From Deltaproteobacteria bacterium (GTDB lineage: Bacteria > Desulfobacterota > GWC2-55-46 > UBA9637), in the NCBI GenBank assembly GCA_016219285.1, contig JACRNJ010000027.1:1-50434 (forward strand): a stretch of DNA of 50,434 bases. Direction: 5' to 3'. This document shows, one piece after another, positions 1,584 through 50,434 of this stretch (position 1 is the stretch's first letter; every line of letters begins with the position of its first letter). A program made the position numbers and the translations under genes. The notes under the pieces are model-generated. The model was given only the letters and a program-made list of their open reading frames with translations, did not search any database and was not told where the DNA came from.

Positions 1584-1600
1584 ACAGAGGAGTTACGCTC

Positions 1601-6239: not shown

Positions 6240-6325
6240 AAAAGTTGTCATTCCCGCGAAAGCGGGAATCCATAACATATTGATTTTACAAAGACTGGAT
6301 TCCCGATAAAAACCTCGGGACAGAA
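6240..6325. repeat. Dispersed palindromic intergenic repeat (cattcccgcgaaagcgggaatcc ... ggattcccg)
   Basis: Hairpin CCCGCgaaaGCGGG plus a second gattcccg/cgaggtttttatcggg segment between traH and the next ORF. Confidence 0.6.
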
Positions 6326-6354
6326 AAAGAGTTTTTCAGCAGCCTGCTAATAAT

Positions 6355-6870: not shown

Positions 6871-6880
6871 GGTTATAGAT

Positions 6881-30720: not shown

Positions 30721-30721
30721 T

Positions 30722-30793
30722 CTGGATTTTAGATTGCAGATTTACGATTTTAGATTTTAAATCGTAAATCCCAAATCGTAAATCGTAAATATT
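30722..30793. repeat. ATTTACGATT-type repeat
   Basis: tggattttagattgcagatttacgattttagattttaaatcgtaaatcccaaatcgtaaatcgtaaat. Confidence 0.7.
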
Positions 30794-31453: not shown

Positions 31454-31454
31454 A

Positions 31455-31530
31455 TAAAATTTTAGATTTACGATTTCAGATTTTGGATTTAAATTCTTAA
31501 AATCGTAATTCGTAAATCGTAATTCGTAAA
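31455..31530. repeat. ATTTACGATT-type repeat
   Basis: aaaattttagatttacgatttcagattttggatttaaattcttaaaatcgtaattcgtaaatcgtaattcgtaaat. Confidence 0.7.
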
Positions 31531-31535
31531 TTCAT

Positions 31536-32984
31536 ATGACGCTTTTAATTCTGCTCAGCATATCATTGCTATCAGCAATTACCCTTGCCTTTGTGGGCGA
31601 CAGGAAGATTGCCACTGAGATAAATATACTTGGGTCTGCGGCTACATTTTTTGCAGGGGTTGGACTTGCAGTTCAGGTTTATATGCAGGGCCCGATGCTG
31701 GCTGCCGGAAAGTTCTTTTTTGTTGATGCCTTTAATGTATATCTTGCGGTGCTCACCTCTTTTGTCTCCATGACAACAGCCATCTTCAGCAGAAGATATA
31801 TGCGTCGTGAAAGAGAGCATGGCCGTGTAGGACACTGGGGCATGCGTTTCTATCATGCCATGTTTCAGCTATTTATCTTTGCCATGCTTCTGGCGCTCTT
31901 AACCAATAATATCGGCGTGTTGTGGATAGCAATGGAGCTTGCCACTTTATCCACTGTCTTGCTGGTTTCCCTTTATCGCACCCCTACAGCAATTGAGGCG
32001 GCATGGAAATATTTTATACTATGTGGCGTTGGAATTGCATTAGCGCTATTTGGAACAGTGCTTCTCTATTTTGCAGCAGAAAGGGTTTTGGGCGAAGGCG
32101 GTGAAGCGCTTCTCTGGACAAACCTGAATCAGGTAAAAAGCCTGCTTGAGCCAACTGTTTTGTCGCTTGCCTTTGTATTTTTAATGGTTGGTTACGGCAC
32201 AAAGGTCGGGCTTGTTCCTCTTCACAACTGGCTTCCTGATGCTCACAGCGAAGGCCCTACACCGATATCCGCCGTGCTTTCAGGACTGCTCTTAAATATT
32301 GCGCTCTATGCGCTGGTTAGATGCAAGGTTCTTGTTGATGGAGCTACAGGCACACACCAGGCAGGCTATATAATGATGGGATTTGGTCTTCTTTCTATTC
32401 TGGTTGCCGCCTTTTCCATCTTGAGACAGAAGGATATAAAAAGGATGTTTGCGTATTCATCCATTGAACATATGGGCATAGCAACCTTTGCATTCGGCCT
32501 GGGCGGGCCAATAGCCACATTCGGAGCGCTACTGCACATGTTGGTTCACAGCCTGACCAAGTCGGCAATATTTTTTACCGTGGGGCATGCATCCCAGATG
32601 AATGAAACGCAGGAGATGAGCAAGATAAAGGGGCTTATCAAAGGAAACCCTCTTGTTGGTTGGGGGCTTATGTTCGGTGTTATGGCAATTGTGGGAATGC
32701 CCCCCTTTGGTGTTTTTGTGAGCGAGTTTTTAATACTGACCGCAACAATAAAGAATGCGCCGCTCTTAACACCTCTGCTCTTGGTAGGGCTTGTCGTTGC
32801 ATTTGCAGCGCTTTTTAGAAGGGTTCAACCAATGGTAGCCGGTGAGATTCCGGCAAACCAGCAGTTTTTAAAAGTCGCCCATATACCGGTAATTTTGCAC
32901 ATGGTATTGGTGCTTATTATCGGTCTATATATGCCAAATTTTCTGGCAGAATGGTTTCACACTGCGGCTGGGTTGTTGAAGTGA
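31536..32984 (+). CDS. HyfF-like / NuoN/M-family proton-translocating subunit
   Basis: 'LWIAMELATLSTVLLVSLYRTPTAIEAAWKYFILCGVGIALALFG', 'KVGLVPLHNWLPDAHSEGPTPISAVLSGLLLNIALYALVR', 'FAYSSIEHMGIATFAFGLG'. Confidence 0.93.
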   Translation: MTLLILLSISLLSAITLAFVGDRKIATEINILGSAATFFAGVGLAVQVYMQGPMLAAGKFFFVDAFNVYLAVLTSFVSMTTAIFSRRYMRREREHGRVGHWGMRFYHAMFQLFIFAMLLALLTNNIGVLWIAMELATLSTVLLVSLYRTPTAIEAAWKYFILCGVGIALALFGTVLLYFAAERVLGEGGEALLWTNLNQVKSLLEPTVLSLAFVFLMVGYGTKVGLVPLHNWLPDAHSEGPTPISAVLSGLLLNIALYALVRCKVLVDGATGTHQAGYIMMGFGLLSILVAAFSILRQKDIKRMFAYSSIEHMGIATFAFGLGGPIATFGALLHMLVHSLTKSAIFFTVGHASQMNETQEMSKIKGLIKGNPLVGWGLMFGVMAIVGMPPFGVFVSEFLILTATIKNAPLLTPLLLVGLVVAFAALFRRVQPMVAGEIPANQQFLKVAHIPVILHMVLVLIIGLYMPNFLAEWFHTAAGLLK

Positions 32985-32987
32985 GTG

Positions 32988-33167
32988 TGTTCACGCTCAC
33001 AATGCCCACCTGCTGTGTTATCGCTGCGGCTTCTGCGCTCAAGATATCTGTAGTTTGCCCATTTATGGGCGTATCCCCGCTTAAAGCCTGCGGGGACAGG
33101 TTTAAAAACGCCGATAAATCGGTAAACTACAACCGCCTTGCATCTGGACGATTTTTGAACGTGAACA
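32988..33167. repeat. Composite repeat element (TGTTCACG...CGTGAACA ends; internal GTAGTTTGCCCATTTATGGGCG...CGCCGATAAATCGGTAAACTAC)
   Basis: Inverted ends and nested hairpins between the hyfF-like and hyfG-like genes; inner motif also near 35.67 and 35.93 kb. Confidence 0.6.
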
Positions 33168-33284
33168 TATAGATTCAAAATGAAGAAAAAAGACAGATAG
33201 AAAATAAACTTATCAAAAAACATCTTGAATATAGCAAGCAGGGTGGGCTGAGCCCGCCTTCAATACTAAACCAAGTTTCGATAT

Positions 33285-34895
33285 ATGACTATACTTCAAA
33301 ACATTGTAATTTCTATACTTGAAGAAGTCGCAATACAGGATGCTAACCAATATCCTGCAAATGTGCCAACATATCAAATCCCCCGTGAGAGGTTTGCAGA
33401 AATTGCCAAGGTGATGAAGACCGCCGGGGCGAGGCTTGTGGCAGAATGGGCGACGGATGAAACATTACACCCCCACCATCCCCTCCCACATCAAGGGGGA
33501 GGGGGTAGGGGGATGGGCTTCGGCATCTATGCCTGCTATGCAAAAGATTCGGAATATCTGATTATCAAAACCTACACCCCACTTGAAGACCCAACATTCC
33601 CAAGCCTTGTAAAAAAATTTGTGCCTGCATATCGGTTTGAAAGGCAGATGAAAAGCCTCATGGGCGTTGTGCCTGTAGGACATCCTGATCCCAGGCCGTG
33701 GATAAAGCATGAAGATTGGCCGGAAGATGCGTATCCATTAAGAAAATCATTTGATGCATCAAAGCCAATACCGAGAGTTGCAGGCGAATACCGGTTTATA
33801 AAGGCAGAGGGCGAAGGGGTTTATGAGATACCTGTCGGCCCTGTTCATGCAGGAATCATTGAGCCTGGGCATTTCAGATTTCAGGCGGTCGGAGAGGATA
33901 TAATCAATCTGGAAGAAAAGCTCGGCTATGTGCATAAAGGCATAGAAAAAAGATTTGAAACTCTTTCATGGGAAGATGGCGCAAAGCTGGCCGGCAGAGT
34001 ATCTGGCGACACTACGGTTGCCCATGCCCTTGCCTATTGCCGTGCAGTTGAGACAATGACAGAATGCACCCCCCCTGAAAGGGCGTTGTGGCTTCGGGCA
34101 TTGATGCTTGAAAGGGAACGTATTGCAAATCATCTTGGAGACATTGGGGCAATCTGCAATGATGTGGCATTTGCTTTTCTTCTATATCAATTCTCAATTC
34201 TCAAGGAAAAACTCCTCCGCACAAACTTAAAACTCTTTGCCCACAGGCTTATGATGGATAAGATTATACTGGGTGGAGTAGCTGTTGATATTAGCCCGGA
34301 TGCTAAAAATGGAATATTGACAGAAATGGACTGGCTGGTAAATGAATTTGAAAGACTTGTTATCATCTATGATGAAAACCCGTCCCTTGAAGACAGGGTA
34401 AGGGATGCCGGAATTCTTTCACCCGATACCGCTAAAGGGCTTTGCGTTGTTGGGTTTGTGGCAAGGGCAAGCTGGCAACCCATTGACTGCCGTCTGCAGA
34501 ATCCATTTCCGCCATACGACATCATTGTTCCAAGGGTAGCTGTTCTTAAGTCGGGAGATGTTCATGCCCGTGTATGGGTTCGTATTGAGGAGATAAGAGA
34601 ATCTATTCGTATTATCCGTGAGATACTGAATAGCTTGCCTGAAGGTGAAATTGCATGTAAATTTATTCTTCCATCACCAGACATTGCAGGCTTTGCGGTT
34701 GTTGAAGGCTGGCGTGGTGAAGTAGTCTACTGGCTTCAGTCAGGGCCAAGAGGGGAGATAAATCGCTGTATGATAAGAGATCCGTCCAGTGTCAACTGGA
34801 TTGCGCTGGAACAGGCAATACATGGGAATATCGTTCCTGATTTTCCGCTTTGCAATAAGAGTTTTAATCAATCATATTCGGGGAATGATTTATGA
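33285..34895 (+). CDS. HyfG/HycE (NuoCD-like) large subunit lacking NiFe-binding cysteines (Ehr type)
   Basis: 'GPVHAGIIEPGHFRFQAVGEDIINLEEKLGYVHKGIEKRFE', then 'AGRVSGDTTVAHALAYCRAVE' where hydrogenases have RVCGxC; C-terminal 'IRDPSSVNWIALEQAI' instead of DPCxxC. Confidence 0.9.
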   Translation: MTILQNIVISILEEVAIQDANQYPANVPTYQIPRERFAEIAKVMKTAGARLVAEWATDETLHPHHPLPHQGGGGRGMGFGIYACYAKDSEYLIIKTYTPLEDPTFPSLVKKFVPAYRFERQMKSLMGVVPVGHPDPRPWIKHEDWPEDAYPLRKSFDASKPIPRVAGEYRFIKAEGEGVYEIPVGPVHAGIIEPGHFRFQAVGEDIINLEEKLGYVHKGIEKRFETLSWEDGAKLAGRVSGDTTVAHALAYCRAVETMTECTPPERALWLRALMLERERIANHLGDIGAICNDVAFAFLLYQFSILKEKLLRTNLKLFAHRLMMDKIILGGVAVDISPDAKNGILTEMDWLVNEFERLVIIYDENPSLEDRVRDAGILSPDTAKGLCVVGFVARASWQPIDCRLQNPFPPYDIIVPRVAVLKSGDVHARVWVRIEEIRESIRIIREILNSLPEGEIACKFILPSPDIAGFAVVEGWRGEVVYWLQSGPRGEINRCMIRDPSSVNWIALEQAIHGNIVPDFPLCNKSFNQSYSGNDL

Positions 34896-34955
34896 AGTTT
34901 CAAGTTTCAGGATGCAAGATTCAAGTTTTTACCTGCAACTTGTAACTTGCAACTC
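34893..34955. repeat. GCAAGTTG-type repeat
   Basis: atgaagtttcaagtttcaggatgcaagattcaagtttttacctgcaacttgtaacttgcaact. Confidence 0.65.
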
Positions 34956-34993
34956 CTATCCAAATGTTGGAAGAAATTAATTCAAGGTAAATT

Positions 34994-35503
34994 ATGTTAA
35001 GAATCTTACACCAGATATTCAGGACCGGCATTGTTACCGAACCGCTCCCTTCGGCAATAGAGGCTGAGATAGAAGAAGTTGGTGCAAGGCTTGAAGAGGC
35101 CATCAAAAGGCGTTTTCGCAGAAGTCTTACCATAAGACAGGTTGATGCAGGTTCGTGCAATGCCTGTGAACTGGAAATCCATGCCATAAACAATCCCGTC
35201 TACAATAGCGAGAGATTCGGCATACACTTTACCGCCTCTCCAAGATTTGCGGATATGCTTTTGGTTACAGGGCCTGTTTCAAGAAACATGGAAATAGCGC
35301 TGTGCAGGACTTACAATGCCACACCTTGTCCAAAGCTTGTAGTCGCGGTTGGCGACTGTGGGTGTAGTGGCGGCATATTTGGAGAAAGTTATGCTTCATT
35401 AGGGGGTGTCGATAAGGTAATACCTGTAGATGTATATATAAAAGGATGTCCGCCTACGCCCGTTGTTATGCTGCAAGGTATACTCAAGGCCGTTGGGAAA
35501 TGA
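34994..35503 (+). CDS. HyfI/NuoB-like small FeS subunit
   Basis: 'DAGSCNACELEIHAINNPVYNSERFGIHFTASPRFADMLLVTGPVSRNMEIAL', 'VGDCGCSGGIFGESYAS', 'VYIKGCPPTPVVMLQGIL'; the FeS ligands are retained. Confidence 0.94.
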   Translation: MLRILHQIFRTGIVTEPLPSAIEAEIEEVGARLEEAIKRRFRRSLTIRQVDAGSCNACELEIHAINNPVYNSERFGIHFTASPRFADMLLVTGPVSRNMEIALCRTYNATPCPKLVVAVGDCGCSGGIFGESYASLGGVDKVIPVDVYIKGCPPTPVVMLQGILKAVGK

Positions 35504-36418: not shown

Positions 36419-39334
36419 ATGGACAAAATAATCATCAAAGGCGCTAAAGAGCACAATCTGAAAAACATTGACCTGGAAATCCCAAGGGATAAGTTTGTTG
36501 TAATTACAGGTGTGAGCGGTTCTGGCAAATCATCGCTTGCCTTTGACACCATCTATGCAGAGGGGCAGAGGCGGTATGTGGAGAGCCTTTCTGCGTATGC
36601 AAGGCAGTTCCTTGAGCAGATGGAAAAGCCTGATGTGGAAAATATTGAAGGGCTTTCGCCCGCCATATCTATTGAGCAAAAAACCACCAGCAAGAATCCC
36701 CGCTCAACCGTCGGCACCGTTACCGAGATTTATGACTATCTCAGGCTTTTGTTCGCAAGGGTCGGCAGGCCCTATTGCTATAAATGCGGGAAAGAGATTT
36801 CAGCCCAGACCATTCAGCAGATGGTGGACAGGGTTATGGAGCTTCCGCAGGATACAAAGATAATCCTCTCCTCGCCCATCGTAAGAGGCAGAAAGGGTGA
36901 ATATAAAAAGGAACTGGAACAGTTACGGAAAGACGGTTACACAAAGGTAAAGATAGATGGAGAGATGAAGGATTTGAACGAAGAGATTGCGCTGGACAAA
37001 AAAAAGAAACACACCATAGATGTTGTCATAGACAGGCTGGTAATAAAGCCGGGAATCGTAAAACGGCTTGCCGATTCATTTGAAGTTGCAACGAAGTTGT
37101 CGGAAGGGATTGCCAAGGTGGAGATTGTTATGGAGCAAGCCAACCGTGTTGGCGTAAAGATGGCGACATGGTTGCCCTTGTCCAAAGACGGCAACACGGT
37201 TGCCTCAGTCCAAAAGGAGATTTTATTTAACGAAAAACTTGCCTGTGTTGATTGCGGCATAAGCTACCCAGAATTAACTCCGGCCATGTTTTCCTTCAAC
37301 AGCCCGCACGGCGCCTGCGCTGAGTGCAACGGGCTCGGCGGGAAACTCTATTTTGACCCTGACCTGGTTGTGCCGAATAAAGAGATTTCCTTGCGGGAAG
37401 GGGCCATAGCGCCATGGGGAAGAAAATCTTCCATCTATTTTCATCAGATGATTGATGCGCTTTCACGGTATTTCAAGTTTGATATTTATACGGCCTTTAA
37501 GGATTTGCCTAAGAAAATTCAGGATGTTTTGCTTTATGGCTCAGGCGATGAGGATGTGGAATTTTACTATGAAAAAGGAGACCGCCGCCATTACTATAAA
37601 AAACCTTTTGAAGGCGTTTTAAAAAATCTTGAGAGAAGGTATCACGAAACAGATTCATTTGATATAAGAGAGGACATGGCACAGTATATGAACATACAGC
37701 CGTGCCCTGTGTGCAACGGCTCACGGCTTAAAAGGGAGGCAATGTTTGTAAAGATTGACGACCATTCTATATATGATGTAACTCAAATGTCAATAAAGGA
37801 GAGTTTCAGATTTTTTAAAGGACTGAAACTGGGAAAAACAGAGCAGGAGATTGCGCGAAGGGTTTTTAAAGAGATAGAGGAGAGGCTCGGATTCCTGATA
37901 AATGTGGGGCTTGATTATCTTACCCTGGAAAGGTCTTCTGCAACACTTTCCGGCGGAGAGGGGCAGCGCATAAGGCTTGCAACACAGATAGGCTCAAGCC
38001 TCGTCGGTGTCCTGTATATACTAGATGAGCCGTCTATCGGCCTGCATCAAAGGGATAACAAGAGGCTGGTTGATGCATTAAAAAGGCTCAGGGACATCGG
38101 CAATACTGTCTTGGTTGTTGAGCACGATGAGGAGACCATCTTATCTGCGGATTATGTAATTGACATGGGGCCTGGCGCAGGCGAGGGCGGAGGAAGGGTT
38201 ATTGCAACAGGCACGGCAGATGAGATTATGAACAATAAGCAATCCCTGACAGGCAGATATTTGAGCAGGGAGATGGAAATTCCTGTGCCTTCCAACAGGA
38301 GGAAAGCCGATGGGAGGTTTCTGACCATAAAAGGCGCCAAGGCAAATAATCTTAAATCCATAACAGCAAAGATTCCGATTGGTCTTATAACATGCGTAAC
38401 CGGTGTTTCAGGCTCAGGTAAGAGCACGTTGGTTGTGGATACATTATATAAGGCCCTTGCCCAGAGGTTGTATCACTCAAAGGAAAGGGCAGGCGAGGTT
38501 GAGAATATCCTTGGCCTTGAGTTCATAGATAAGGTCATTGATATTGACCAGTCTCCTATTGGAAGAACCCCGCGCTCAAATCCTGCCACCTATACCGGAC
38601 TTTTTACGCCCATAAGAGATTTGTTTTCGCAACTGCCGGAGGCAAAGATGCGCGGCTACAAACCAGGCAGGTTCAGTTTCAATGTAAAGGGTGGAAGATG
38701 CGAGGCATGTGAAGGAGATGGTCTTATAAAGGTTGAGATGCACTTTCTTCCCGATGTTTATGTTACCTGTGAAATCTGTAACGGCAAGAGATATAATCGC
38801 GAGACACTGGATATTAAATATAAGGGCAAGAATATCTCAGGTATTCTTGATATGGCGGTTACAGAGGCGCTGATTTTTTTTGAGAACATACCCATGGTAA
38901 AGGATAAGCTTAAAACACTTAATCAAGTCGGTCTTGGCTACATAAGGCTTGGCCAGCCTGCTACAACCCTTTCCGGCGGCGAGGCCCAAAGAATAAAGCT
39001 CGCAAAGGAACTTTCAAAGAGGGCGACCGGCAGGACAATCTATATCCTTGATGAGCCGACCACCGGCCTGCATTTTGCTGATATACAGAAGCTCCTTGAT
39101 GTATTGCAGGAATTGAGGGCTGCCGGCAATACCATTGTAATAATTGAGCACAATCTGGATGTGTTAAAGACCGCCGATTATATCATTGACCTCGGCCCTG
39201 AAGGCGGAGACGAAGGCGGCAGGGTTATTGCAACCGGCACACCCGAAGAGGTATCGCTGGTAAAAGAATCATATACCGGGCAGTTTTTAAAGAATATTCT
39301 GGGGCAAAACAGTGTAGGGGCGGCGGTGGTGTAA
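36419..39334 (+). CDS. uvrA: Excinuclease ABC subunit A
   Basis: '[65 protein letters not shown]', duplicated ABC signatures 'LSGGE', zinc-finger CxxC motifs. Confidence 0.98.
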
Positions 39335-39335: not shown

Positions 39336-40712
39336 ATGAAGCATATCAAAAAACATACACTCCTTATTGTCGAAGATGATGATGTCATGCGGAAGACTTT
39401 GGAAGAGGTCTTTGTAAAGAGGGGGTTCCATGCCCATTCGGTAGGATGTGGAATGGATGCGATAAAATTTGTCAAAAAACAGGGTGTAGACATTGTCTTA
39501 CTGGATATAAGGCTGCCTGATGTGGATGGTATTGCTGTGCTGAAACATATACTGGCAATTGATGATTCAATATTTGTTATTGTGATGACAGCATATCCTG
39601 ATGTCAAGATTGCAATATCTGCAATAAAGGCGGGGGCCTATGATTTTATCAATAAACCATTTGAACTTGAGGAATTAAAACTCCTTGCTGACAAGGCTGT
39701 TGAGACACAGCGGCTCATGAGCGAGGTTCAACGTCTTCGCCATAAGACAGGCGATGAGTGTCTGCCGGAAATGATTGGAGATAGTCTTGCCTTTAGCAAG
39801 GTGAAAGAATTTATCTTAATAGTAGCAAAGACGCCCAAGACACCTGTTCTTATTCAGGGTGAAACAGGCACAGGAAAGGAGCTTGTTGCCAATGCCATTC
39901 ACTGCAGAAGCAATCGTGCAGATATGCCGCTCATCAAGATAAATTGCAGCGCCATAGCTGATAATCTTATGGAGGCGGAATTGTTTGGTTATGAAAAGGG
40001 CGCATTCACGGATGCAAAGGAGACCAAAAAAGGGCTTCTGGAACTGGCGGACGGCGGAACAATATTTTTTGATGAGATTGGCGATATGAGCATAGGACTC
40101 CAGCCAAAACTTTTAAGGGTATTGGAGAACCATAGTTTCAGGAGAGTCGGCGGTATAAGGGATATAAAAGTGGATGTAAGGGTTGTGGCGGCTACCAATA
40201 AGGACTTGCAATCAATGGTCAGGAAAAAAGAATTTCGCGACGACCTCTATTACAGGCTTAAAGTCATGGTTATACACATACCTCCTCTTAGGGAGAGGGA
40301 GGGTGATATAATGCCGCTTGCAGAGCACTTTATACAGCTCAACAACAAGGATTTAGGCAAAGACATTGAAGTGGTCTCGCCTGAGTGCCGGGATATTCTC
40401 TTGCAATATTCGTGGCCTGGAAATGTTAGGGAGCTTAAAAATATTATAGAAAGGGCTGCAATACTTGCCAATTCCAATGAAATACTATCTGAATATCTGC
40501 CTCGCGAGCTTGTTGAGGATATTACAGCCTTTATGCCGGCTATTAATAAAATCAATTCTATTAATGCGACCCTTGAGCAAGTAGAAAAGGCTCATATCCT
40601 GCATGTTTTGAACAGCGTCAATGGCAATATATCTCAGGCATCAAGGATCCTCGGCATCGCCCGCCAGCACCTCAGGAAAAAATTAAAGAAGTATTCTATT
40701 GAAAATAGTTGA
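39336..40712 (+). CDS. Sigma54-dependent response regulator (NtrC family: receiver + AAA + Fis HTH)
   Basis: Receiver 'LLIVEDDDVMRKTLEE...DIVLLDIRLPDVDGIAVLKHI', 'GETGTGKELVANAIH', 'GYEKGAFTDAKETKKGLLELADGGTIFFDEIGDM', C-terminal 'GNISQASRILGIARQHLRKKLKKY'. Confidence 0.96.
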   Translation: MKHIKKHTLLIVEDDDVMRKTLEEVFVKRGFHAHSVGCGMDAIKFVKKQGVDIVLLDIRLPDVDGIAVLKHILAIDDSIFVIVMTAYPDVKIAISAIKAGAYDFINKPFELEELKLLADKAVETQRLMSEVQRLRHKTGDECLPEMIGDSLAFSKVKEFILIVAKTPKTPVLIQGETGTGKELVANAIHCRSNRADMPLIKINCSAIADNLMEAELFGYEKGAFTDAKETKKGLLELADGGTIFFDEIGDMSIGLQPKLLRVLENHSFRRVGGIRDIKVDVRVVAATNKDLQSMVRKKEFRDDLYYRLKVMVIHIPPLREREGDIMPLAEHFIQLNNKDLGKDIEVVSPECRDILLQYSWPGNVRELKNIIERAAILANSNEILSEYLPRELVEDITAFMPAINKINSINATLEQVEKAHILHVLNSVNGNISQASRILGIARQHLRKKLKKYSIENS

Positions 40713-40875: not shown

Positions 40876-40891
40876 TGGCATACCTATTGCA
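40876..40891 (+). promoter_or_regulatory. Sigma54 (-24/-12) promoter
   Basis: TGGCATACCTATTGCA: GG-N10-GC spacing matching the RpoN consensus TGGCAC-N5-TTGC, ~55 bp upstream of the GTG at 40947 and downstream of an NtrC-family gene. Confidence 0.75.
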
Positions 40892-40946: not shown

Positions 40947-41717
40947 GTGAAACGGGCAACAATGATAGCAATAGCAGCTGTATTTACCTTCGGGCTTCTT
41001 ATCAGCCATGCAGGCACAGCTGATGCTGCCTACAAGGAGGGGGCAGTATCAAACGGTGGGGGCATAAAAGGAAAGGTTACATTCAAAGGTTCTTTGCCTG
41101 TTGATGCGGTAGAAAAGATTACCATAACCAAGAACACGGATGTCTGTGGAACAGGGACAAGAGAGGTTGTATGGGTGGATGTTAAAGGGAATTCCTTGCG
41201 CGGGGCATTCGTATTTATTGACGGCATCACAGAGGGCAAGGCATGGTCTGCTCCTGAAGGCGGCAAATATCTGATAGACCAAAAGGGTTGCCGGTTCCGT
41301 CCGTGGACGCAGGTGGTAAAGCCGGGAAATATAACCATTAGAAACAGCGACAATGGTGTTCTTCATAACATTAATACCAGGGAAATGATTGGCGTTGAAA
41401 GCGGGAGCACCGTTAAAAAGGTTATATTTAATTTTGGACAGCCTGACCTTGGCGATATTGAAAAGGAACTTAAGCCGCGCAGGTCGCCATACATTAGCAT
41501 CAATTGCGAGGCCCATAATTTTATGTTTGGTTTTATGATGGTGACTGAACACCCATATGCAGAGGTCGTAGGCGAGGATGGTTCATTTGCCATAAAGGAT
41601 GTGCCTCCCGGAACTTATACGGTGAAGGCATGGCACCCAAGATTTGGTTTAAAAGAGGGCAAGGTTACAGTATCTGCAAAAGGTATAGCAGAAGTAAATT
41701 TTGAGTTTTCAAAGTGA
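40947..41717 (+). CDS. Secreted cupredoxin-like / carboxypeptidase-regulatory-like domain protein
   Basis: Signal peptide; 'TQVVKPGNITIRNSDNGVLHNINTRE' and 'INCEAHNFMFGFMMV' (His, Cys-x2-His-x2-Met pattern) followed by 'DGSFAIKDVPPGTYTVKAWHPRFG'. Confidence 0.65.
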   Translation: MKRATMIAIAAVFTFGLLISHAGTADAAYKEGAVSNGGGIKGKVTFKGSLPVDAVEKITITKNTDVCGTGTREVVWVDVKGNSLRGAFVFIDGITEGKAWSAPEGGKYLIDQKGCRFRPWTQVVKPGNITIRNSDNGVLHNINTREMIGVESGSTVKKVIFNFGQPDLGDIEKELKPRRSPYISINCEAHNFMFGFMMVTEHPYAEVVGEDGSFAIKDVPPGTYTVKAWHPRFGLKEGKVTVSAKGIAEVNFEFSK

Positions 41718-41721
41718 AGAT

Positions 41722-41806
41722 GATTACACAGATTATAAAAGCAGATTACACTGATTCAGACAAAGATATTAATCTGTGTAATCGTTTTTAAAAAATCTGT
41801 GTAATC
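41722..41806 (+). repeat. Inverted repeat GATTACACAGATTA/TAATCTGTGTAATC with an extra third arm
   Basis: Arms at 41722-41735 and 41770-41783 (14 bp perfect, followed by GTTTTT) and a further copy AATCTGTGTAATC at 41794-41806. Confidence 0.7.
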
Positions 41807-41831
41807 AATTTATTAAGGAGGTGAAATTTTT

Positions 41832-42971
41832 ATGAAGAAAGGTTTAATTCTGATGGCGGTTTTAGCTATGTTTCAGTTGGCAGTTGTAGCAGCTAATGCA
41901 GCTGATTATCCTGACATAGGTCCGTTGCCTGAACAGAAGTTTGATGCAAAGAAAGCAGAATTGGGCAAGACGTTGTTTTTTGACGCCAGACTATCCGGGG
42001 ATGCAGCCATAAGTTGCGCTACATGTCATAACTCAGAAAATGGATTCACGACCAGCATGCCACTTTCTGACGCATATCCCGGTTCAAAACATTGGCGGAA
42101 TGCGCCGACCCTGATCAATATTGTCTATAAAGCAAAGACATACGGTTGGGATGGCAGGTTGGACGATTTAGATGATATGCTGAGGGACATGATTACAGAC
42201 TCCATGAATATGAATATGGATATGCAGATTATGCAGGAAAGGCTGAAGCAAGACCCGAAGGTTGTAGCGGCGACACTTGAGGCGTATGGAACCACCGGAT
42301 GGGGCAAAGGGGGACTGGGCACATCTATAAAGGGCGAGATGACACATTATGTGGCAAGGAACGCGCTTGTAGAATTCCTTAAAACGCTTACATCCAAGAA
42401 TGTCCCGTTTGACCAGGGCAATCTTTCAGCAGCGGCAAAGCAAGGCATGGATTTGTTCAAAGGCAAGGCCGGATGTATACAGTGTCATAACGGCGTGTAT
42501 TTTTCTGACAATAAGCCCCATAATACAGGGGTTGCTGAAAACCCTGAGGTCTTTAAAGACCCGCAGAGGCATTTTACCTATGTTGCATTTATGATGTTTA
42601 TGGGTGTTGACAACAGGATGAACTGGAGAAGGGATGTGGGCTATTACAGCATATCAAAAGACAGGAAGGATGTGGGCAAGTTTATTACTCCGACCTTAAG
42701 GGAGCTTAAATATACAGCCCCATATATGCATAACGGTATGCTCGCCACATTAGATGATGTAATTGAGTTCTACAATCAGGGCGGCGGAGAGGACAGACCC
42801 GGATTAAAAGATGCGGCAATGAAACCGTTGAATCTTACCAGCGCTGAAAAGGGCGCGCTTAAGGAATTTCTGTTGAGTTTAAGCGGCGACGCAGTTTCTA
42901 TTCCAATGCCTCCTAAGGGCGGCAAGATTGAATATCAGCCTTTACCAAATTGGAAGGAGGTGAGGAATTGA
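41832..42971 (+). CDS. Diheme cytochrome c peroxidase/MauG-like protein (IdrP-like)
   Basis: Signal peptide; CATCH and CIQCH heme motifs; 'LGKTLFFDARLSGDAAISCATCHNSENGFTT', 'FITPTLRELKYTAPYMHNGMLATLDDVIEFYNQGGG'. Confidence 0.92.
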   Translation: MKKGLILMAVLAMFQLAVVAANAADYPDIGPLPEQKFDAKKAELGKTLFFDARLSGDAAISCATCHNSENGFTTSMPLSDAYPGSKHWRNAPTLINIVYKAKTYGWDGRLDDLDDMLRDMITDSMNMNMDMQIMQERLKQDPKVVAATLEAYGTTGWGKGGLGTSIKGEMTHYVARNALVEFLKTLTSKNVPFDQGNLSAAAKQGMDLFKGKAGCIQCHNGVYFSDNKPHNTGVAENPEVFKDPQRHFTYVAFMMFMGVDNRMNWRRDVGYYSISKDRKDVGKFITPTLRELKYTAPYMHNGMLATLDDVIEFYNQGGGEDRPGLKDAAMKPLNLTSAEKGALKEFLLSLSGDAVSIPMPPKGGKIEYQPLPNWKEVRN

Positions 42972-44152
42972 TGAAAATGCAAAATGTAAAAATAAGGCAT
43001 TTAATTCTTTTGATAACTTTAATGTTTATTGCAATGGGTGGCATTGCCATGGCAGAGGGCGACCCTGACTATGACGCGCCTCTGGCTGCGCTTCCTATGA
43101 ATCCGCCGATACCGACCGACAATCCTTCAGGCACAAATGTATATCCATCCAAGATGGATGCGAAGCAGGAGCTTGGCTACCTGTTATTCTTTGACCCAAA
43201 GCTTAGCGGAGACGCCAGCATAAGCTGCGCCGACTGCCATGACCCAAAGATGGGATGGAGTTTTTCAGATGCGATAAGCAGAGGTTATCCAGGGACAGTG
43301 CATTGGAGAAATTCACAAACCGCAGTAAACTCAGGCTATCTGAATAAAATCTTCTGGGAGGGAGGCACAACAAGCCTTGAGTCTCAGGCCCCGGCGGCCG
43401 CAGGCGGCGGAGTGGCAGGGAACGGCTCTCCTGACATGATGGAATCAAGGATGAGGTTTACGCCTGAATATGTAAAGAGCTTTAAAGAGGTCTTTGGCTT
43501 AGAATGGCCAAGCATGGACCAAGCGTGGGATGCCATAGCAGCGTTTGAGAGATGGCTCTCCCAGCCGAATACCCCGTTTGACAAGTTTATGAGAGGGGAT
43601 AAAAGCGCAATCTCTGAAAAGGCAAAAAAGGGTAAGATGTTGTTTGAGGGTAAGGCAAACTGCATAGAATGTCACAACGGTCCGATGTTAACAGACGAAA
43701 AATTTTATGACATCGGTGTTCCGGACCCTTCAGAGTTTGTCGAAAACGGGGTCCAGCAGGTGACATTCAGATTCCAGAATTATGCAAAGGGTTCTCATGA
43801 AGAAAGCTATCGCACAGCCAAGTCCGACCTTGGTATTTACTTCAAGCAGAAGAGGGCTGAGGACAGGGGTAAGTTCAGGATAGCCCCTTTAAGATACCTT
43901 AAATATACAGCGCCTTACATGCACAACGGGACTCTTTTGACCCTTGAAGAGGTCATTGACTTCTATAACGACGGCGGTGGTGTGGATAGGTGGGGAAATA
44001 AGTCCAAGATACTGAAGAAGCTTAATCTGACAAAGGAAGAGAAGGCTGAACTTATAGAGTTTCTCAATACATTGAGCGGCGAAGAAATAAGACTGCCTGT
44101 GCCAAAGGTGCCTGATTATGCGCCTATGGCTGATTGGCAGCCAAAGAAATAA
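42971..44152 (+). CDS. Second diheme cytochrome c peroxidase/MauG-like protein (IdrP-like)
   Basis: ATG overlaps the preceding stop by 1 nt; CADCH and CIECH; 'LGYLLFFDPKLSGDASISCADCHDPKMGWSF', 'LRYLKYTAPYMHNGTLLTLEEVIDFYNDGGG'. Confidence 0.92.
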   Translation: MKMQNVKIRHLILLITLMFIAMGGIAMAEGDPDYDAPLAALPMNPPIPTDNPSGTNVYPSKMDAKQELGYLLFFDPKLSGDASISCADCHDPKMGWSFSDAISRGYPGTVHWRNSQTAVNSGYLNKIFWEGGTTSLESQAPAAAGGGVAGNGSPDMMESRMRFTPEYVKSFKEVFGLEWPSMDQAWDAIAAFERWLSQPNTPFDKFMRGDKSAISEKAKKGKMLFEGKANCIECHNGPMLTDEKFYDIGVPDPSEFVENGVQQVTFRFQNYAKGSHEESYRTAKSDLGIYFKQKRAEDRGKFRIAPLRYLKYTAPYMHNGTLLTLEEVIDFYNDGGGVDRWGNKSKILKKLNLTKEEKAELIEFLNTLSGEEIRLPVPKVPDYAPMADWQPKK

Positions 44153-44220
44153 AATTTACGAATTACGATTTACGAATTACGATTTAAAAATCTAAAATCT
44201 AAAATCGTAAATCTAATAAT
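44153..44220. repeat. ATTTACGATT-type repeat
   Basis: aatttacgaattacgatttacgaattacgatttaaaaatctaaaatctaaaatcgtaaatct. Confidence 0.7.
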
Positions 44221-44236
44221 AGGGAGGTGAATCTTA

Positions 44237-44782
44237 ATGGCTAATGAAGATAAAGAAAAAGGATGTTTAACCAACTGCCTGACCACCCGCCGCCAGTTCC
44301 TTTCTATAAGCGGAGGCGCTATAGCTACTGCGACTATTCTTCTCTCCGGCATACCTGGTTTCGGAACAAAAAAGGTTGAGGCGGTTGTCTCAAAATATCC
44401 GAGACAGAAAATCGGGAAGTTGAGCGCATTAAAACAGGATGCACCTGTGAGCTTTGCCTATCCGTCAAAAGACATCAATAATATGCTGGTGAAATTAGGG
44501 GTCCCGGCAGGCGGAGGTATTGGGCCAAATATGGATGTTGTTGCCTTTAATCCTGTATGCACGCATATGGGCGGACCTTTGGCAAAGGCATACAATGCCA
44601 AACACAAGATATTAGGCCAGTGCCCGTTCCATCAGTCAACATTTGACCTGACGCGGCACGGCATGATTGTCTGCGGCCATGCAACTGAGAGCCTTCCACA
44701 GATACAGCTTGAGGTAGAAGGGGATGACATATATGCCACAGGTGTTATTGGGTTGGTATTTGGGAGAAGCAGCAATATATAA
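44237..44782 (+). CDS. TAT-exported Rieske [2Fe-2S] subunit (IdrB/AioB family)
   Basis: TAT motif 'TRRQFLSISGG'; Rieske ligands 'NPVCTHMGGPL' and 'GQCPFHQSTFDLTRHGMIVCGHATESLPQIQLEVEGDDIYATGV'. Confidence 0.92.
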   Translation: MANEDKEKGCLTNCLTTRRQFLSISGGAIATATILLSGIPGFGTKKVEAVVSKYPRQKIGKLSALKQDAPVSFAYPSKDINNMLVKLGVPAGGGIGPNMDVVAFNPVCTHMGGPLAKAYNAKHKILGQCPFHQSTFDLTRHGMIVCGHATESLPQIQLEVEGDDIYATGVIGLVFGRSSNI

Positions 44783-44889
44783 TTTACGAATTACGATTTA
44801 CGAATTACGATTTAAAAATCTAAAATCGTAAACTCTTGACAGGCAAAGGCAATATGCCTGTCAAGGGTAAATCTAAAATCGTAAATACA
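44780..44889. repeat. ATTTACGATT-type repeat interrupted by a CTTGACAGGCA...TGCCTGTCAAG hairpin
   Basis: Hairpin arms 44835-44845 and 44855-44865 nested within cgatttaaaaatctaaaatcgtaaa / gtaaatctaaaatcgtaaat. Confidence 0.7.
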
Positions 44890-44906
44890 AAAAGGAGGTG
44901 TAATCA

Positions 44907-47666
44907 ATGGCAACACCATATTATATACCAGAAGATAGAGTGCCTCTTCCGCCGTCTGACGCAGAGGTGTTTACCACATGCTGCGACTACTGCATTGTAG
45001 CGTGCGGCTACAAGGTCTATCGCTGGCCTTTAGGTCAGGAAGGCGGAGTAAAGGCAAATGAAAACGCATTTAAAAAGAATTTCCCTGTAGGACCTCTTGG
45101 GAGATGGGTCAGTCCTAATCAGCACAATATTGTAATAGCAAACGGCAAGCCGCACCATGTTGTTGTTGTCCCGGACGAGAATGTAGAGGCAGTGAACCTT
45201 ACAGGCGACGGCAGTATAAGAGGTGGATGTATTGCGCAGAAGGTATATAACCCGAATAAGCCGACAAGGGACAGGCTGCAGAGGCCTATGGTAAGGGTAT
45301 TTGATACGCTTATGCCTGTGAGCTGGGATTTTGCCCTGGATATTGCGGCAGAGGTGTCAAAATATGTAATCAAGAATCACAGCGAAAATGCGTGGGCATG
45401 CAAGACCAACTCCTATCAGTACATGGAAAACCTGTATGCTATAACAAGATTTGCCCTGAAGGACATCAATACACCGGCATTTGCATGGCACGACCAGCCA
45501 ATAGTTGGCGAAGAGTCAGCAGGCATTGCCTATGCAGGCTTTCAGACATTTGGACCGGGCTACTGGGACAGGAAAAACGCAGATGTGCTTTTCATCTCAG
45601 GAACAGACCCGTTTGAGACAAAGACCATACTCTGGAATGAATGGATTATGCCTGGCATAAAGAAGGGAATGAAGACAATCTTTGTGCTTCCAAGGAGGAC
45701 TGCAGGCGCCGCATTTGCAGAGGCAAACGGAGGATTATACCTTGATGTCATTCCTGGCACAGATTCTATTCTTTACAATGCGATCGCCAGAATCATTCTT
45801 GAGAACAACGGTCAGGATATGGAGTTTATCAAGAACTGGACATCCAACTTTGTAGGCGAGCAATGGGAAACAGAATCAGGATTTGGAAGAGGCACAAGAA
45901 ATACCCACTGGCAGTGGATAACCACATGGGGAAAGCTTGCGGCAAAGGGTTTTGAGGAATTCAAGAAGTGGGTCCTTGACCAGAAGGAATTTGAAATCAA
46001 TAAGGCATCTGAGATAACAGGCGTGTCTGTTGAGAAAATCAAAAAGGCAGCAGAGATGCTCTCTAATGCGGATGGAAAAAAGAAAATCTCCTTTGCCTAT
46101 GAGAAGGGAAATTACTGGTCAAACAACTATCTCAATACCGCATCCCTCGGCTCTCTGGCTCTGATTACAGGCTGCGGCAACAGGCCAGGCAGAATGCTGG
46201 GCAGGCTTGGCGGACATCAGAGGGGCGGCGTTGGCGGAGGAAACTATCCTGGCAACAAGTCTGCTGATAAGTTTGGAGGCAGGAGAAGGCTCACCATGGA
46301 TGTAGACAGGTGGCTTGAGTCAGGACATGTGAGATTTGCATGGGTAGTAGGAACAACATGGGTCTCAGCAATGAGCGGCTCCCAGTCGCTGATGGATACA
46401 TTTAACCGGTTAGTAAAGCAGAACCCCAATCAGGTGATGAGTCTTGTAAAAGAGGATATCATTGAGACCCTTAAAAAGAGGATTGACAGCGGCGGCACTG
46501 TGGTAGTGAATCAGGACATCTATCTCAGAGACCCGATTGGCGCAAAGTATGCCGATATTGTCCTTCCTGTTGCCACATGGGGAGAGGAAAACTTTCTCCG
46601 CGCCAATGGCGAAAGAAGAATAAGGCTTTATGAGAAGTTTTATGATGCGCCTGGCGAGGCAAAGCCTGACTGGTGGATTGTGGCAAAATGGGCGAAGAAG
46701 ATGGGCTTTGAGGGGTATGACTGGAAGGATTCAAATGATGTTGCAACAGAGATGTCCAGATTCACCAGAGGTCGTCAGGACAATAACTTTGATGCCCTTA
46801 ACTGGATAGCAAAGAAAAAAGGGATGAAAGTTCATGACCTCATCCGCAAATTCGGCACAACAGGATTCCAGACACCGGCTATTGTTGTTGATGAGAATTA
46901 CAAATATGACAGGCCTGGCGCTGAATACACAATGCCGAAGAATATGCGTGATTCCGCCGACCTGAAGGCCGACGGCCTCAAGGTAATCGGTGTTGCAAGG
47001 CTTCAGGATTCTGAATGGAAGCTGCCGGATGCCCACTTTGGAGGCAGGTATATTGACCCCAAGACTCTGACAGCCTTCAACACCCAGTCAGGCAAGGCAA
47101 ACTGGCTAAAGAGCCCGTGGGATGTCTATTCAGACTTCCACGAATGGGTCAAGCCTAAGGATGATGAGCTTTGGGTGACAAATGGAAGGGTGAACGAGGT
47201 ATGGCAGTCAGGCTTTGATGATATGGAGAGAAGGCCGTATATTACACAGCGTTTCCCTGAGCAGTTTATAGAAATACACCCTGACGATGCAAAGGCGAGG
47301 GGGATAGAAAGCGGGGATATGGTGATAGCGTCCAGCGACAGGGTTGCGGTTTGGACTACGCAAAAGATGGGGACAAACGCCCTGGATACAAAATTCAGCG
47401 CGTTGATGAAGGCAGGACATATAAAAATGACAAAGGCAAGCATAAGCGCTGTGGCAATAGTAACGGCTGCTGTGAAAAAGGGCGTGGCATTTATGTACTT
47501 CCTGCACCCGACCCAGCCGTCAAATTCGCTTGCCTCCAGGGTTGTGGACCCGCTTACCAATCAATACAGATATAAAGTTGGCGTAGGCAGGGTAAAGAAG
47601 ATTGGCGAATCTCCATATAAGCACGACTTCCGCACCATGACCTTTAAAGATAGGGATATCGTTTAA
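44907..47666 (+). CDS. Molybdopterin oxidoreductase catalytic subunit, arsenite oxidase/iodate reductase family (IdrA/AioA-like)
   Basis: 'VFTTCCDYCIVACGYKVYRWP' FeS motif; 'NSYQYMENLYAITRFALKDINTPAFAWHDQPIVGEE', 'NRPGRMLGRLGGHQRGGVGGGNYPG', 'LRDPIGAKYADIVLPVATWGEENFLRANGERRIRLYEKF'. Confidence 0.92.
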   Translation: MATPYYIPEDRVPLPPSDAEVFTTCCDYCIVACGYKVYRWPLGQEGGVKANENAFKKNFPVGPLGRWVSPNQHNIVIANGKPHHVVVVPDENVEAVNLTGDGSIRGGCIAQKVYNPNKPTRDRLQRPMVRVFDTLMPVSWDFALDIAAEVSKYVIKNHSENAWACKTNSYQYMENLYAITRFALKDINTPAFAWHDQPIVGEESAGIAYAGFQTFGPGYWDRKNADVLFISGTDPFETKTILWNEWIMPGIKKGMKTIFVLPRRTAGAAFAEANGGLYLDVIPGTDSILYNAIARIILENNGQDMEFIKNWTSNFVGEQWETESGFGRGTRNTHWQWITTWGKLAAKGFEEFKKWVLDQKEFEINKASEITGVSVEKIKKAAEMLSNADGKKKISFAYEKGNYWSNNYLNTASLGSLALITGCGNRPGRMLGRLGGHQRGGVGGGNYPGNKSADKFGGRRRLTMDVDRWLESGHVRFAWVVGTTWVSAMSGSQSLMDTFNRLVKQNPNQVMSLVKEDIIETLKKRIDSGGTVVVNQDIYLRDPIGAKYADIVLPVATWGEENFLRANGERRIRLYEKFYDAPGEAKPDWWIVAKWAKKMGFEGYDWKDSNDVATEMSRFTRGRQDNNFDALNWIAKKKGMKVHDLIRKFGTTGFQTPAIVVDENYKYDRPGAEYTMPKNMRDSADLKADGLKVIGVARLQDSEWKLPDAHFGGRYIDPKTLTAFNTQSGKANWLKSPWDVYSDFHEWVKPKDDELWVTNGRVNEVWQSGFDDMERRPYITQRFPEQFIEIHPDDAKARGIESGDMVIASSDRVAVWTTQKMGTNALDTKFSALMKAGHIKMTKASISAVAIVTAAVKKGVAFMYFLHPTQPSNSLASRVVDPLTNQYRYKVGVGRVKKIGESPYKHDFRTMTFKDRDIV

Positions 47667-47740: not shown

Positions 47741-49663
47741 ATGATGAAGACAACCGCTGCTATAGTTGATATTACCGGCACATCCGCTTGTATGCATGAA
47801 TCTTATAACAAAGAAATTGTTGCAGAGGCCATTGTTGCAGTTATGGGAAACCATGACGCTTGTATCAGATGTTCTGCCGCAAAGGCCTTGGGTAATATCA
47901 AGGCAAAAGAGGCGGTGAAACACCTTATGAAATATTTAAAAGATTCCGATCCGGATGTAAGAAGCGATGCGGCTTCGGCCCTGGGCAAAATAGGCGATAG
48001 AGGGTCTGTTGCGTCGCTTATTCACTCTTTGGAAGATGAAGATGGGATTGTAAGAATCTCTGCTATTAAGGCTTTGGCAGATATAGGAGATATCCTTGCT
48101 GTAGAGCCGCTTATTCAATCTATGAATTCTCATTTTAGCTTTCCTGTGATTTTGGGAGAGTTGTCGGGCGATTATCAATGGGAGATAAGAGAAAGGGCGG
48201 CAGAGACGTTAGGCAGGATAAAAGACCAGAGGGCAGTTCAGGCGTTGATAGAGATTTTGAAGGACGAGGATGCAGACATAATGCTCGGAACTATATTCCA
48301 ATCTCTGGTTCAGCAAGGAGACAGAAAAGGTATTGATGTAGTAGCTTCATATCTGAAACATGAAGATATATCTGTTCGTAGAAAGGCGAGCAGGGCATTT
48401 ATCTGCGCACATGATAATACAGCGCTAGACTATCTTAAGGAAGCGCTTGTAGATGAAGACGCCACAGTCAAATGCAATGCCATAGAGGCCATTGGGAATA
48501 TAGGCAGCGAAAAGGAGAGTCTTCTCTTTGTCTTATTGCTAAAAGATGAAGATGTTGATGTCAGAAAAACTGCTGCTAAGGTAATGGTCAAAATAGACGG
48601 CAAAAAGGCGGCAAAACATATTCTGCCGCTTTTGCATGATGTGAGCAGCGATGTAAGAAGAGTGGCTGTGGAATTGCTCGGCAATATGGGAAACGCAGAA
48701 TACATTGAACCTGTTATCAATATGTTAAAAGATAGCGCAAATGAAGTATGCGACGCAGCGATTACATTGGCAGGAAGGCTTAAAGATTCAAGGGCAGTTA
48801 ATCTCCTGATAACAATACTCAAGGATAAAGAAAAAGACAAAATGCTGCGAAGCAAGGCAATCCTGGCATTGGCAGATATTGGACAAGCAGATGGCTTGAA
48901 TGCTGTTTTGGGAATCATGACGAATCGGCAAGAGGATTTGTATCTCAGACAGATGGTGTTTAAATCTTTAAAGAGGTTTGATAAACGGATGGTTGTTGAT
49001 AATATCTCAAAACCAGGAAACACTGGTAATGAATTTGTGCAACTGGAACTGGCAAGAAGTTTGCGTGATTTTAACGATGCTAAATCAGAAGCCATGCTTT
49101 TTGAATTAATGAACAGTGAAAACGAGGCTGTTAAAAAAGAGGCAGCCTTATCTCTTTGCTATAGAGGAAATGGGGCCGCCTTGGATGTCTTAGCTCCAAT
49201 GATTGCAGGTGAAGATATCTATGTCATTGAAGAGGTATGCAATACAATTAAAAATGTAAAAAGCGAAAAGGTTCTGAAGCTGTTTATGAATTTGCTGGAG
49301 AGCGAGAATGCAGCAGCAAGATACAGCGCTGTAAAGGCTATGGGTTATACATTAAATAAAGGCGCTGTGCCGGCAGTTATTGGCTTGTTAAAGGACGATA
49401 ATAAAGATGTCCGGAGAGAGGCGGTGGTTGCCATTGGCAGGCTATGTGATAAAAGAGGATTAGCGCCGCTCGTTTCGGCGCTTTACGATTATGAAAGGTT
49501 TAATGATATGCGCAAAGAGATTGCTATATCTTGTAAGAATATAGCTGCGGCAGCAGCCATAAAACTTATTGTAGATACATTAGATGATAAATCAAAAAAT
49601 GATTGCCACTGGATTGCAATAGAGGCGCTGTCAGAAATTTATGGTATGCAGGAGGAGGCATGA
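47741..49663 (+). CDS. HEAT-repeat (PBS lyase-type) protein
   Basis: Repeated ~31-aa units such as 'LMKYLKDSDPDVRSDAASALGKIGDRGSVASLIHSLEDEDGIVRISAIKALADIGD'. Confidence 0.9.
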   Translation: MMKTTAAIVDITGTSACMHESYNKEIVAEAIVAVMGNHDACIRCSAAKALGNIKAKEAVKHLMKYLKDSDPDVRSDAASALGKIGDRGSVASLIHSLEDEDGIVRISAIKALADIGDILAVEPLIQSMNSHFSFPVILGELSGDYQWEIRERAAETLGRIKDQRAVQALIEILKDEDADIMLGTIFQSLVQQGDRKGIDVVASYLKHEDISVRRKASRAFICAHDNTALDYLKEALVDEDATVKCNAIEAIGNIGSEKESLLFVLLLKDEDVDVRKTAAKVMVKIDGKKAAKHILPLLHDVSSDVRRVAVELLGNMGNAEYIEPVINMLKDSANEVCDAAITLAGRLKDSRAVNLLITILKDKEKDKMLRSKAILALADIGQADGLNAVLGIMTNRQEDLYLRQMVFKSLKRFDKRMVVDNISKPGNTGNEFVQLELARSLRDFNDAKSEAMLFELMNSENEAVKKEAALSLCYRGNGAALDVLAPMIAGEDIYVIEEVCNTIKNVKSEKVLKLFMNLLESENAAARYSAVKAMGYTLNKGAVPAVIGLLKDDNKDVRREAVVAIGRLCDKRGLAPLVSALYDYERFNDMRKEIAISCKNIAAAAAIKLIVDTLDDKSKNDCHWIAIEALSEIYGMQEEA

Positions 49664-50202
49664 CATTGACATGGCAGAAGAGATTGATTTTTTGCGTAGT
49701 CTTTATTTTTTTTATGGGCGGGTTGATAGGACATGCTGGCGAGAACAAGAAAATAGGCATGGATGTTGCCAAGGGCAAAGAGATATTTCATGAAAGATGC
49801 GCTGCATGTCACGGCGCTGATGGCAATGCCCTTCTTCCCAATGCGCCCAGTTTTGCAAAAGGCGAAAGGATGGAGAAAACGGATAGCGAACTCTTAAAGA
49901 CAATTAAACATGGAAAGGAAATGATGCCGCCATGGGAAGGGGTTATTTCCGATGAAGAACAGCTTAACACATTAAATTATGTCAGGGTCATTGTCGGAGA
50001 CAAGGTCTTTGATGATAAATGTGTTAAGTGCCATGAAAAAATACCCGGCATACCCCCCGATGTCCCTGATAATAAGGCATTGAAGGATTACAGCGGTACA
50101 ATTAAGATATGCAAGGCCTGCGAGATTGAGAAAGAGCTTAGCCGTGATGAGCAGATAGAGGTCATCAAATTCATCAGGTATCTCGGGACATTAAAAAAGT
50201 AA
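49660..50202 (+). CDS. Secreted diheme cytochrome c
   Basis: ATG 49660 with ggaggaggc RBS, overlapping the upstream stop; signal peptide; CAACH and CVKCH motifs. Confidence 0.88.
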   Translation: MTLTWQKRLIFCVVFIFFMGGLIGHAGENKKIGMDVAKGKEIFHERCAACHGADGNALLPNAPSFAKGERMEKTDSELLKTIKHGKEMMPPWEGVISDEEQLNTLNYVRVIVGDKVFDDKCVKCHEKIPGIPPDVPDNKALKDYSGTIKICKACEIEKELSRDEQIEVIKFIRYLGTLKK

Positions 50203-50222: not shown

Positions 50223-50434
50223 ATGTTTTTTAAGCGGAGTAAATTTTTAAAGATTAGCGGGGCTGGACTTCTATGGATTTTCTTGCTTGCTATCCCTGCC
50301 TTTGCCCTTGAGGCCAATGAATATCGGCAGATTGGGGGCATTGAGTCGAGGAAGCTGGTGTGGTTTTTAGCGCAGTTGCACCTCTATTTTGGTGCATTTG
50401 TTTTAGGAGTTCCGCTCTTTGCCGTGATTATAGA
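50223..50434 (+). CDS. Membrane protein, 5' part (cytochrome bd-like subunit?), truncated by window edge
   Basis: MFFKRSKFLKISGAGLLWIFLLAIPAFALEANEYRQIGGIESRKLVWFLAQLHLYFGAFVLGVPLFAVII; open to the window end. Confidence 0.5.
   Translation, partial: MFFKRSKFLKISGAGLLWIFLLAIPAFALEANEYRQIGGIESRKLVWFLAQLHLYFGAFVLGVPLFAVII

Follow-up and report, generated by a model that had tools for sequence, protein, structure and literature searches.

Organization of the idr locus

The window analysed here, a stretch of 50,434 nt that represents one contig of an uncultured groundwater bacterium (Deltaproteobacteria bacterium, JACRNJ010000027.1), carries a gene cluster that is probably an operon for iodate reductase (idr). 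The cluster lies on the forward (+) strand. Its core comprises two consecutive genes for diheme proteins of the MauG/CcpA family (41832-42971, encoding 379 aa with a signal-peptide-like N-terminus, and 42950-44152, for which the ATG at 42971 is probably the true start), a gene for the Rieske [2Fe-2S] small subunit IdrB (44237-44782, 181 aa), exported by twin-arginine translocation (TAT), and a gene for an IdrA-type molybdopterin catalytic subunit of 919 aa (44907-47666). A preliminary description of this DNA had placed the limits of the cluster at 40947-47666, which is too narrow: including the upstream regulator and the downstream genes described below, the functional unit runs from approximately 39336 to past the contig end at 50434, where the downstream side of the window stops.

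The arrangement P-P-B-A, which had been taken as a departure from the idr order, is the standard published one (PMC10989891, PMC8801600). The two diheme genes always precede idrAB, in an order considered characteristic (PMC8801600, PMC10989891, PMC8692401), namely P2-P1-B-A, so that a novel gene order is ruled out (PMC10989891). In this published order (idrP2, P1, B, A) the first diheme gene of the window corresponds to IdrP2 and the second to IdrP1. The same P-P-B-A order was found in homologous loci with enough flanking sequence, for example on a plasmid of Azonexus hydrophilus NCP973 and in locus L135, and the paired diheme genes are present in nearly all loci with enough flank. The AioA loci that were fetched show no diheme pair, as had been expected of arsenite oxidase (aio) loci; likewise, all neighbourhoods of the idrA clade were reported to contain idrABP1P2, and those of aioA to lack the peroxidases (PMC8692401). 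One betaproteobacterial genome (G531) carries two different idrA-type loci, L110 and L111, one with the copper gene described below and the other without it.

IdrB scored 135 bits against TIGR02694 (cut-off 96). It displays the TAT motif TTRRQFL, in agreement with the preliminary description, and the cluster-binding motif CTH-x18-CPFH (CxH-x18-CxxH), with the spacing of IdrB from Azoarcus DN11; inspection of its motifs revealed no Rieske disulfide cysteines. The motifs found in the window agree with those published for strain DN11, which are CX2CX3CX70S in IdrA, CxH-x18-CxxH plus a TAT signal in IdrB, and two CxxCH in each diheme protein (PMC10149662).

The catalytic subunit belongs to the IdrA clade

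The 919-aa protein matched TIGR02693 with 403 bits (cut-off 359), as anticipated for a molybdenum subunit of the Aio family. It contains a CX2CX3CX69S [3Fe-4S] motif, and no signal peptide is visible at its N-terminus, MATPYYIPEDRV. Its identity is 50-60% to the groups of IdrA, with approximately 54% to IdrA of the verified type, versus about 28-31% to AioA. Two trees were built, of 96 and 47 sequences (90 and 41 IdrA-type, with six AioA in each), in which close relatives stood in for the named strains with verified iodate reductases. In both trees the window protein is located inside the IdrA-type clade, from which AioA is split off by a long branch with full support (Shimodaira-Hasegawa-like approximate likelihood ratio test, SH-aLRT, 100). 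In the best tree the clade of the window protein joins a marine IdrA group, with an alternative placement retained in the approximately unbiased (AU) test (p 0.375).

Nine residues discriminate IdrA from AioA, at positions fixed in 98-99 of 99 IdrAs and otherwise fixed in seven of seven AioAs, and all nine are of the IdrA type in the window protein (S169, Y170, D196, F215, D234, Y403, R439, D550 and R565). Judged by the tree and by these residues, which rule out that it is an AioA, the catalytic subunit is a genuine but divergent member of the IdrA clade. The phylogeny against AioA and IdrA suggested in the preliminary description thus places it outside AioA, and its proposal of an idr-type cluster with a divergent iodate reductase is backed by phylogeny, synteny, diagnostic residues and regulation.

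An insert of approximately 30 aa (window 46880-46980, IdrA residues ~658-690) occurs only in the clade of the window protein and, in part, in a marine Nitrospirae IdrA (L028). Elsewhere, in L106 (G035:C195; locus L006, 2-802), an IdrA-type gene is followed by a NarH-like gene with, by eye, several [4Fe-4S]-type cysteine clusters, which is another combination of Idr with parts of type-II DMSO reductases.

The paired diheme proteins

Both diheme proteins contain two CxxCH motifs and match PF03150 (CCP_MauG), the first with CATCH/CIQCH (E 1e-36) and the second with CADCH/CIECH (E 2e-38), which bears out their description as neighbouring MauG/CcpA-like proteins. Their additional label of peroxidases is doubtful. 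In bacterial cytochrome c peroxidases (bCcPs), His71 and Glu114 have roles in activation and peroxide cleavage. When the proteins were aligned to solved bCcPs (residues in Pseudomonas aeruginosa numbering), His71 was replaced by Tyr in both, Glu114 by Asn in the first and by Ala in the second, and Met275 by Tyr in both; in the proteins of Azonexus and L135 these bCcP residues are replaced as well. Across homologous loci, His71 is replaced by Tyr in 82/82 first and 87/87 second diheme proteins, Met275 is replaced by Tyr in 82/82 and 86/87 (168/169 overall), and Glu is absent from the residues listed at position 114 for these 82 and 87 proteins, a position in a region of uncertain alignment to MbnH.

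Since the residues that serve activation and peroxide cleavage are replaced, an ordinary H2O2-peroxidase role lacks sequence support, and the paired proteins are, on these residues, unlikely to be ordinary H2O2 peroxidases. Such a role was assumed in both published Idr mechanisms, and the role of IdrP1/IdrP2 was called unclear in PMC11445184. The window proteins share with bCcP, MauG and MbnH the PF03150 fold family and two c-hemes, and the Tyr that takes the place of the axial Met ligand at 275 matches the MbnH row of the alignment. They differ in that Tyr occupies position 71 and Glu is missing from position 114, and both stayed below the cut-offs of the curated MauG/MbnH families (TIGR03791/TIGR04039: 178-192 bits versus 444; 166-183 versus 363). 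A redox role similar to that of MauG or MbnH, either in the handling of reactive iodine species or as an electron relay in the Idr complex, would be a better fit to the residues. The AlphaFold model of the first protein (predicted local distance difference test, pLDDT, 60.8) was too poor and was left unused.

Predicted regulation by sigma-54

Upstream of the cluster, a gene at 39336-40712 (+) encodes a sigma-54-dependent response regulator of the AtoC/NtrC type (458 aa; Pfam Response_reg, Sigma54_activat and HTH_8, with AtoC as the top NCBIfam model). Approximately 55 bp 5' of the first operon gene, a -24/-12 promoter, TGGCATACCTATTGCA, is located at 40876-40891 (+), and it is the only sigma-54 match with at most one mismatch in the 50 kb window. 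An AtoC-type activator occupies the same position in Azonexus NCP973 (L089) and is also found upstream in L135, atoC lies upstream of idr in Azoarcus DN11 (PMC10149662), and regulators 54-68% identical to that of the window were found in L009-L011 and L014. Over 81 idr loci the promoter is present in 13 of the 16 with a linked regulator versus 5 of the 65 without (Fisher 1e-8, phylogeny not controlled). The linked activator and its matching promoter appear to reproduce the regulation of verified iodate respirers. In L009 a sensor kinase gene is located 5' of the regulator, the place where in the window uvrA (36419-39334) abuts it instead. The cluster had been described as lying next to uvrA, which holds to the extent that uvrA is upstream, with the regulator gene in between.

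Copper protein and putative downstream electron-transfer module

The gene at 40947-41717 (+), in front of the diheme pair, encodes a predicted periplasmic protein of 256 aa composed of a cupredoxin domain and a C-terminal CarboxypepD_reg/EMC7-like beta-sandwich. Its ligands His140, Cys187, His190 and Met193 are invariant in 26/26 homologues near idr loci, and its AlphaFold model (pLDDT 90.7) was matched by Foldseek to pseudoazurin, plastocyanin and amicyanin with a probability of 1.00. By invariant ligands and modelled fold it is a true type-1 copper protein, which confirms the cupredoxin-like gene noticed earlier. It had been described as an addition to the idr set and in fact recurs across idr loci (25 of 101), where it lies either immediately 5' of the two diheme genes or 3' of idrA. 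A small c551-like cytochrome is instead frequent in loci of the verified betaproteobacterial type, a distribution no more than suggestive of the copper gene and c551 being alternatives.

Downstream of idrA the window contains, on the same strand, genes for a HEAT-repeat protein of 640 aa (47741-49663; HEAT_2, 273 bits), for a periplasmic diheme c-type cytochrome of 180 aa (49660-50202; Cytochrome_CBB3 and Cytochrom_C, two CxxCH) and for the N-terminus of a cytochrome bd-like membrane protein (50223-50434), cut by the contig end. An open reading frame of 660-790 aa for a HEAT protein is found directly 3' of idrA in 33 of the 83 loci whose flank is long enough, its repeats making this a weak match. 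The diheme cytochrome is 48% identical to the gene at the equivalent position in L010, and over 54 aa the bd-like N-terminus shares 70% identity with the bd-like gene of that locus (717 aa), in which PF01654 is confined to the N-terminal part. In the relatives, idrA is followed by the HEAT gene, a bd-like membrane protein of 700-760 aa, two c-type cytochromes and an EB_dh-type cytochrome, whose EB_dh/DMSO-reductase-II-gamma heme-b domain matches subunit C of nitrite oxidoreductase (NXR) and the gamma subunit of ethylbenzene dehydrogenase. Of a module that is present as a full set in relatives, the window thus holds the copper gene, the HEAT protein, the diheme cytochrome and, from the bd-like protein, the N-terminal 70 aa. 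Among loci with sufficient flanking sequence, the module goes together with the copper gene (9/12 versus 0/49; Fisher 1e-8), and at least five changes are required on the tree. Neither the copper gene nor the bd-like module was mentioned in the idr papers that were searched for them.

The same set of parts lies beside nitrite oxidoreductase in Nitrospina, Nitrospira and the anammox bacterium Kuenenia, where an ordinary oxidase role was doubted for the bd-like protein and an alternative complex III was considered possible (PMC3578206). The likeness extends to a cupredoxin, mono- and diheme cytochromes, an EB_dh/NxrC-type heme-b protein and a bd-like protein resembling CydA only N-terminally, with the difference that here the module is attached to the Idr enzyme and not to NXR; it is a relatedness by family and domain, together with the PDB match of the EB_dh cytochrome to NXR subunit C, and not by phylogeny. 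These data suggest that idr operons are equipped for electron transfer in two ways, one of which is NXR-like. A second module of bd-like protein, two c-type cytochromes and EB_dh-type cytochrome, with no idr beside it, lies elsewhere in the same genome as the window (G000:C32:2345-7603, L163).

Distribution, mobility and neighbouring genes

Of the 395 genomes sampled in the phylum, four carry the enzyme. Its nearest IdrA kin, 81-90% identical, are from groundwater metagenome-assembled genomes labelled as Deltaproteobacteria, Nitrosomonadales and Nitrospiria. The only other genome sampled from the same genus (G090) does not have it, and displays a cation-efflux gene 3' of uvrA with no idr cluster there; genomes G016 and G397 carry idr on a different contig from uvrA. 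The uvrA linkage, which had been noted as a feature of the locus, is therefore incidental and can be ruled out as meaningful. The patchy distribution, the empty site and the high identity across phyla support a horizontally moving cassette, as was proposed for idr in general (PMC8692401).

Sampling of the host metabolism located a COX1-type gene with CtaB- and SCO-like genes next to it, as well as cytochrome b genes. No chlorite dismutase (Cld) was found in the genome, which rules out its involvement, and no ars or aio genes were recognised among the neighbours examined.

Two further regions of the window were noticed. F-type conjugation genes at 576-9571 (TraU, TrbC, TraF-type peptidase S26, TraF, TraH and TraG_N), next to rho and glycolysis genes, possibly represent an integrative conjugative element or its remnant. 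A Hydrogenase-4/complex-I-like membrane complex is encoded at 27701-35503; its 49-kDa-type subunit (33285-34895) apparently lacks, by eye, the usual NiFe cysteine motifs, and the complex may be hydrogenase-related (Ehr-like).

Proposed function and alternative explanations

We consider it probable that a groundwater-associated lineage has here a complete idr operon, one that moves horizontally and encodes a sigma-54-controlled periplasmic iodate reductase. Membership in the Idr family points to both substrate and direction, and in Denitromonas an idrA knockout abolishes growth on iodate (PMC8692401, PMC11445184). Iodate would be sensed by a two-component system, of which the sigma-54 activator (39336-40712) would switch on the promoter at 40876. 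IdrA, with its predicted molybdenum bis-pyranopterin guanine dinucleotide (Mo-bisPGD) and [3Fe-4S] cluster, would be exported together with the TAT-carrying IdrB, and would catalyse in the periplasm a four-electron reduction of iodate to hypoiodous acid, followed by disproportionation or further reduction. The Rieske centre of IdrB may receive electrons from the diheme cytochrome, the type-1 copper protein or both, these carriers being fed from the quinol pool through the bd-like/heme-b/cytochrome c module; this path would stand in for the route from bc1 to c551 postulated in verified iodate respirers. For the paired diheme proteins, a MauG/MbnH-like role as outlined above would fit better than that of ordinary peroxidases.

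The operon resembles the idrABP1P2 systems of Pseudomonas sp. SCT, Denitromonas iodatirespirans IR-12, Azoarcus DN11 and Aromatoleum TC-10 in gene set and order (P-P-B-A), cofactor motifs, a TAT signal confined to B, diheme proteins with signal-peptide-like N-termini, a linked AtoC-type sigma-54 regulator, and a patchy, horizontal distribution. It differs from them in its IdrA (~54% identity to the verified type, with Glu at the AioA-Glu203 position), in the type-1 copper protein in front, in its downstream genes (for the HEAT protein, the diheme cytochrome c and the bd-like/cytochrome module, where the others have c551 and moaA), and in lacking a sensor kinase gene directly upstream in the window.

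Several observations weigh against this interpretation. The clade of the window enzyme falls either inside or just outside the span of betaproteobacterial (respiring) and marine IdrAs (AU p 0.375). Among IdrAs, only this clade has Glu at the position of AioA Glu203, which is Asp in betaproteobacterial and Ser in most marine IdrAs, and it thereby holds all four arsenite-site residues of AioA on an otherwise IdrA background: H195, E203, R433 and H437 of the window protein match the His/Glu/Arg/His of AioA, namely His195/Glu203/Arg419/His423 (A. faecalis numbering). Because the second module stands without idr in the same genome, the module is not Idr-specific but a respiratory component of general use that idr has recruited. 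It also resembles that of nitrite oxidoreductase, where electrons leave the enzyme (PMC3578206).

The depth of the clade, its specific active-site Glu and its insert partly shared with a Nitrospirae sequence would also be compatible with a reductase of another oxyanion (e.g. bromate, chlorate, selenate or nitrate) that uses the Idr scaffold, a rather unlikely explanation given that the whole idr operon, its order and its regulation are conserved and that the position of the Glu already varies between Asp and Ser in other IdrAs.

It is unlikely, too, that the enzyme acts mainly as an oxidase of iodide or partly reduced iodine species, in which case electrons would pass by way of the copper protein and the cytochromes to an oxidase, or return to quinone via the bd-like protein, as in the proposal for NXR. 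The set of cupredoxin, mono/diheme c, NxrC/EB_dh-type heme b and bd-like protein is the one that accompanies NXR in Nitrospina, Nitrospira and anammox bacteria (PMC3578206), AioA, the nearest characterised relative, is an oxidase, and the genome has the COX1-type gene. However, the idr-bearing organisms tested in the cited studies reduce iodate (PMC8692401, PMC10149662, PMC11445184), the potential gap is small (IO3-/I- +0.72 V versus O2 +0.82 V; PMC8801600), the sigma-54 two-component control matches that of iodate-inducible operons, and the module is also present without idr.

An arsenite oxidase, i.e. an AioBA variant with accessory diheme proteins, shares with the window enzyme the superfamily branch, the [3Fe-4S] ligands, the Rieske subunit, TIGR02693/02694 scores over cut-off, a cupredoxin-type partner (azurin) and, uniquely among IdrAs, the four site residues, but is highly improbable in view of the low identity to AioA (about 31%, against 54-57% to the IdrA groups), the fully supported separate clade, the nine IdrA-type residues, the diheme pair that is absent from the AioA loci fetched, and the neighbourhood in which no ars/aio genes were recognised.

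Significance

If the locus is an idr operon, as proposed, it adds a groundwater idr lineage across several phyla to a process, iodate reduction, that controls how mobile iodine, including 129I, is in aquifers and supplies the iodide pool at the sea surface. Given the residues of the diheme proteins, the naming of IdrP1/IdrP2 as ordinary H2O2 peroxidases loses its basis in sequence. More speculatively, and with low probability, the idr clusters with type-1 copper protein, HEAT protein, bd-like protein, NxrC-type heme b and c-type cytochromes might be reversible or iodide-oxidising respiratory systems built like NXR, an idea worth testing because biological iodide oxidation is a recognised gap (PMC8300602). 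If true, the NXR-like architecture would supply a gene candidate for the enzymatic oxidation of iodide to iodate in groundwater and sea water.

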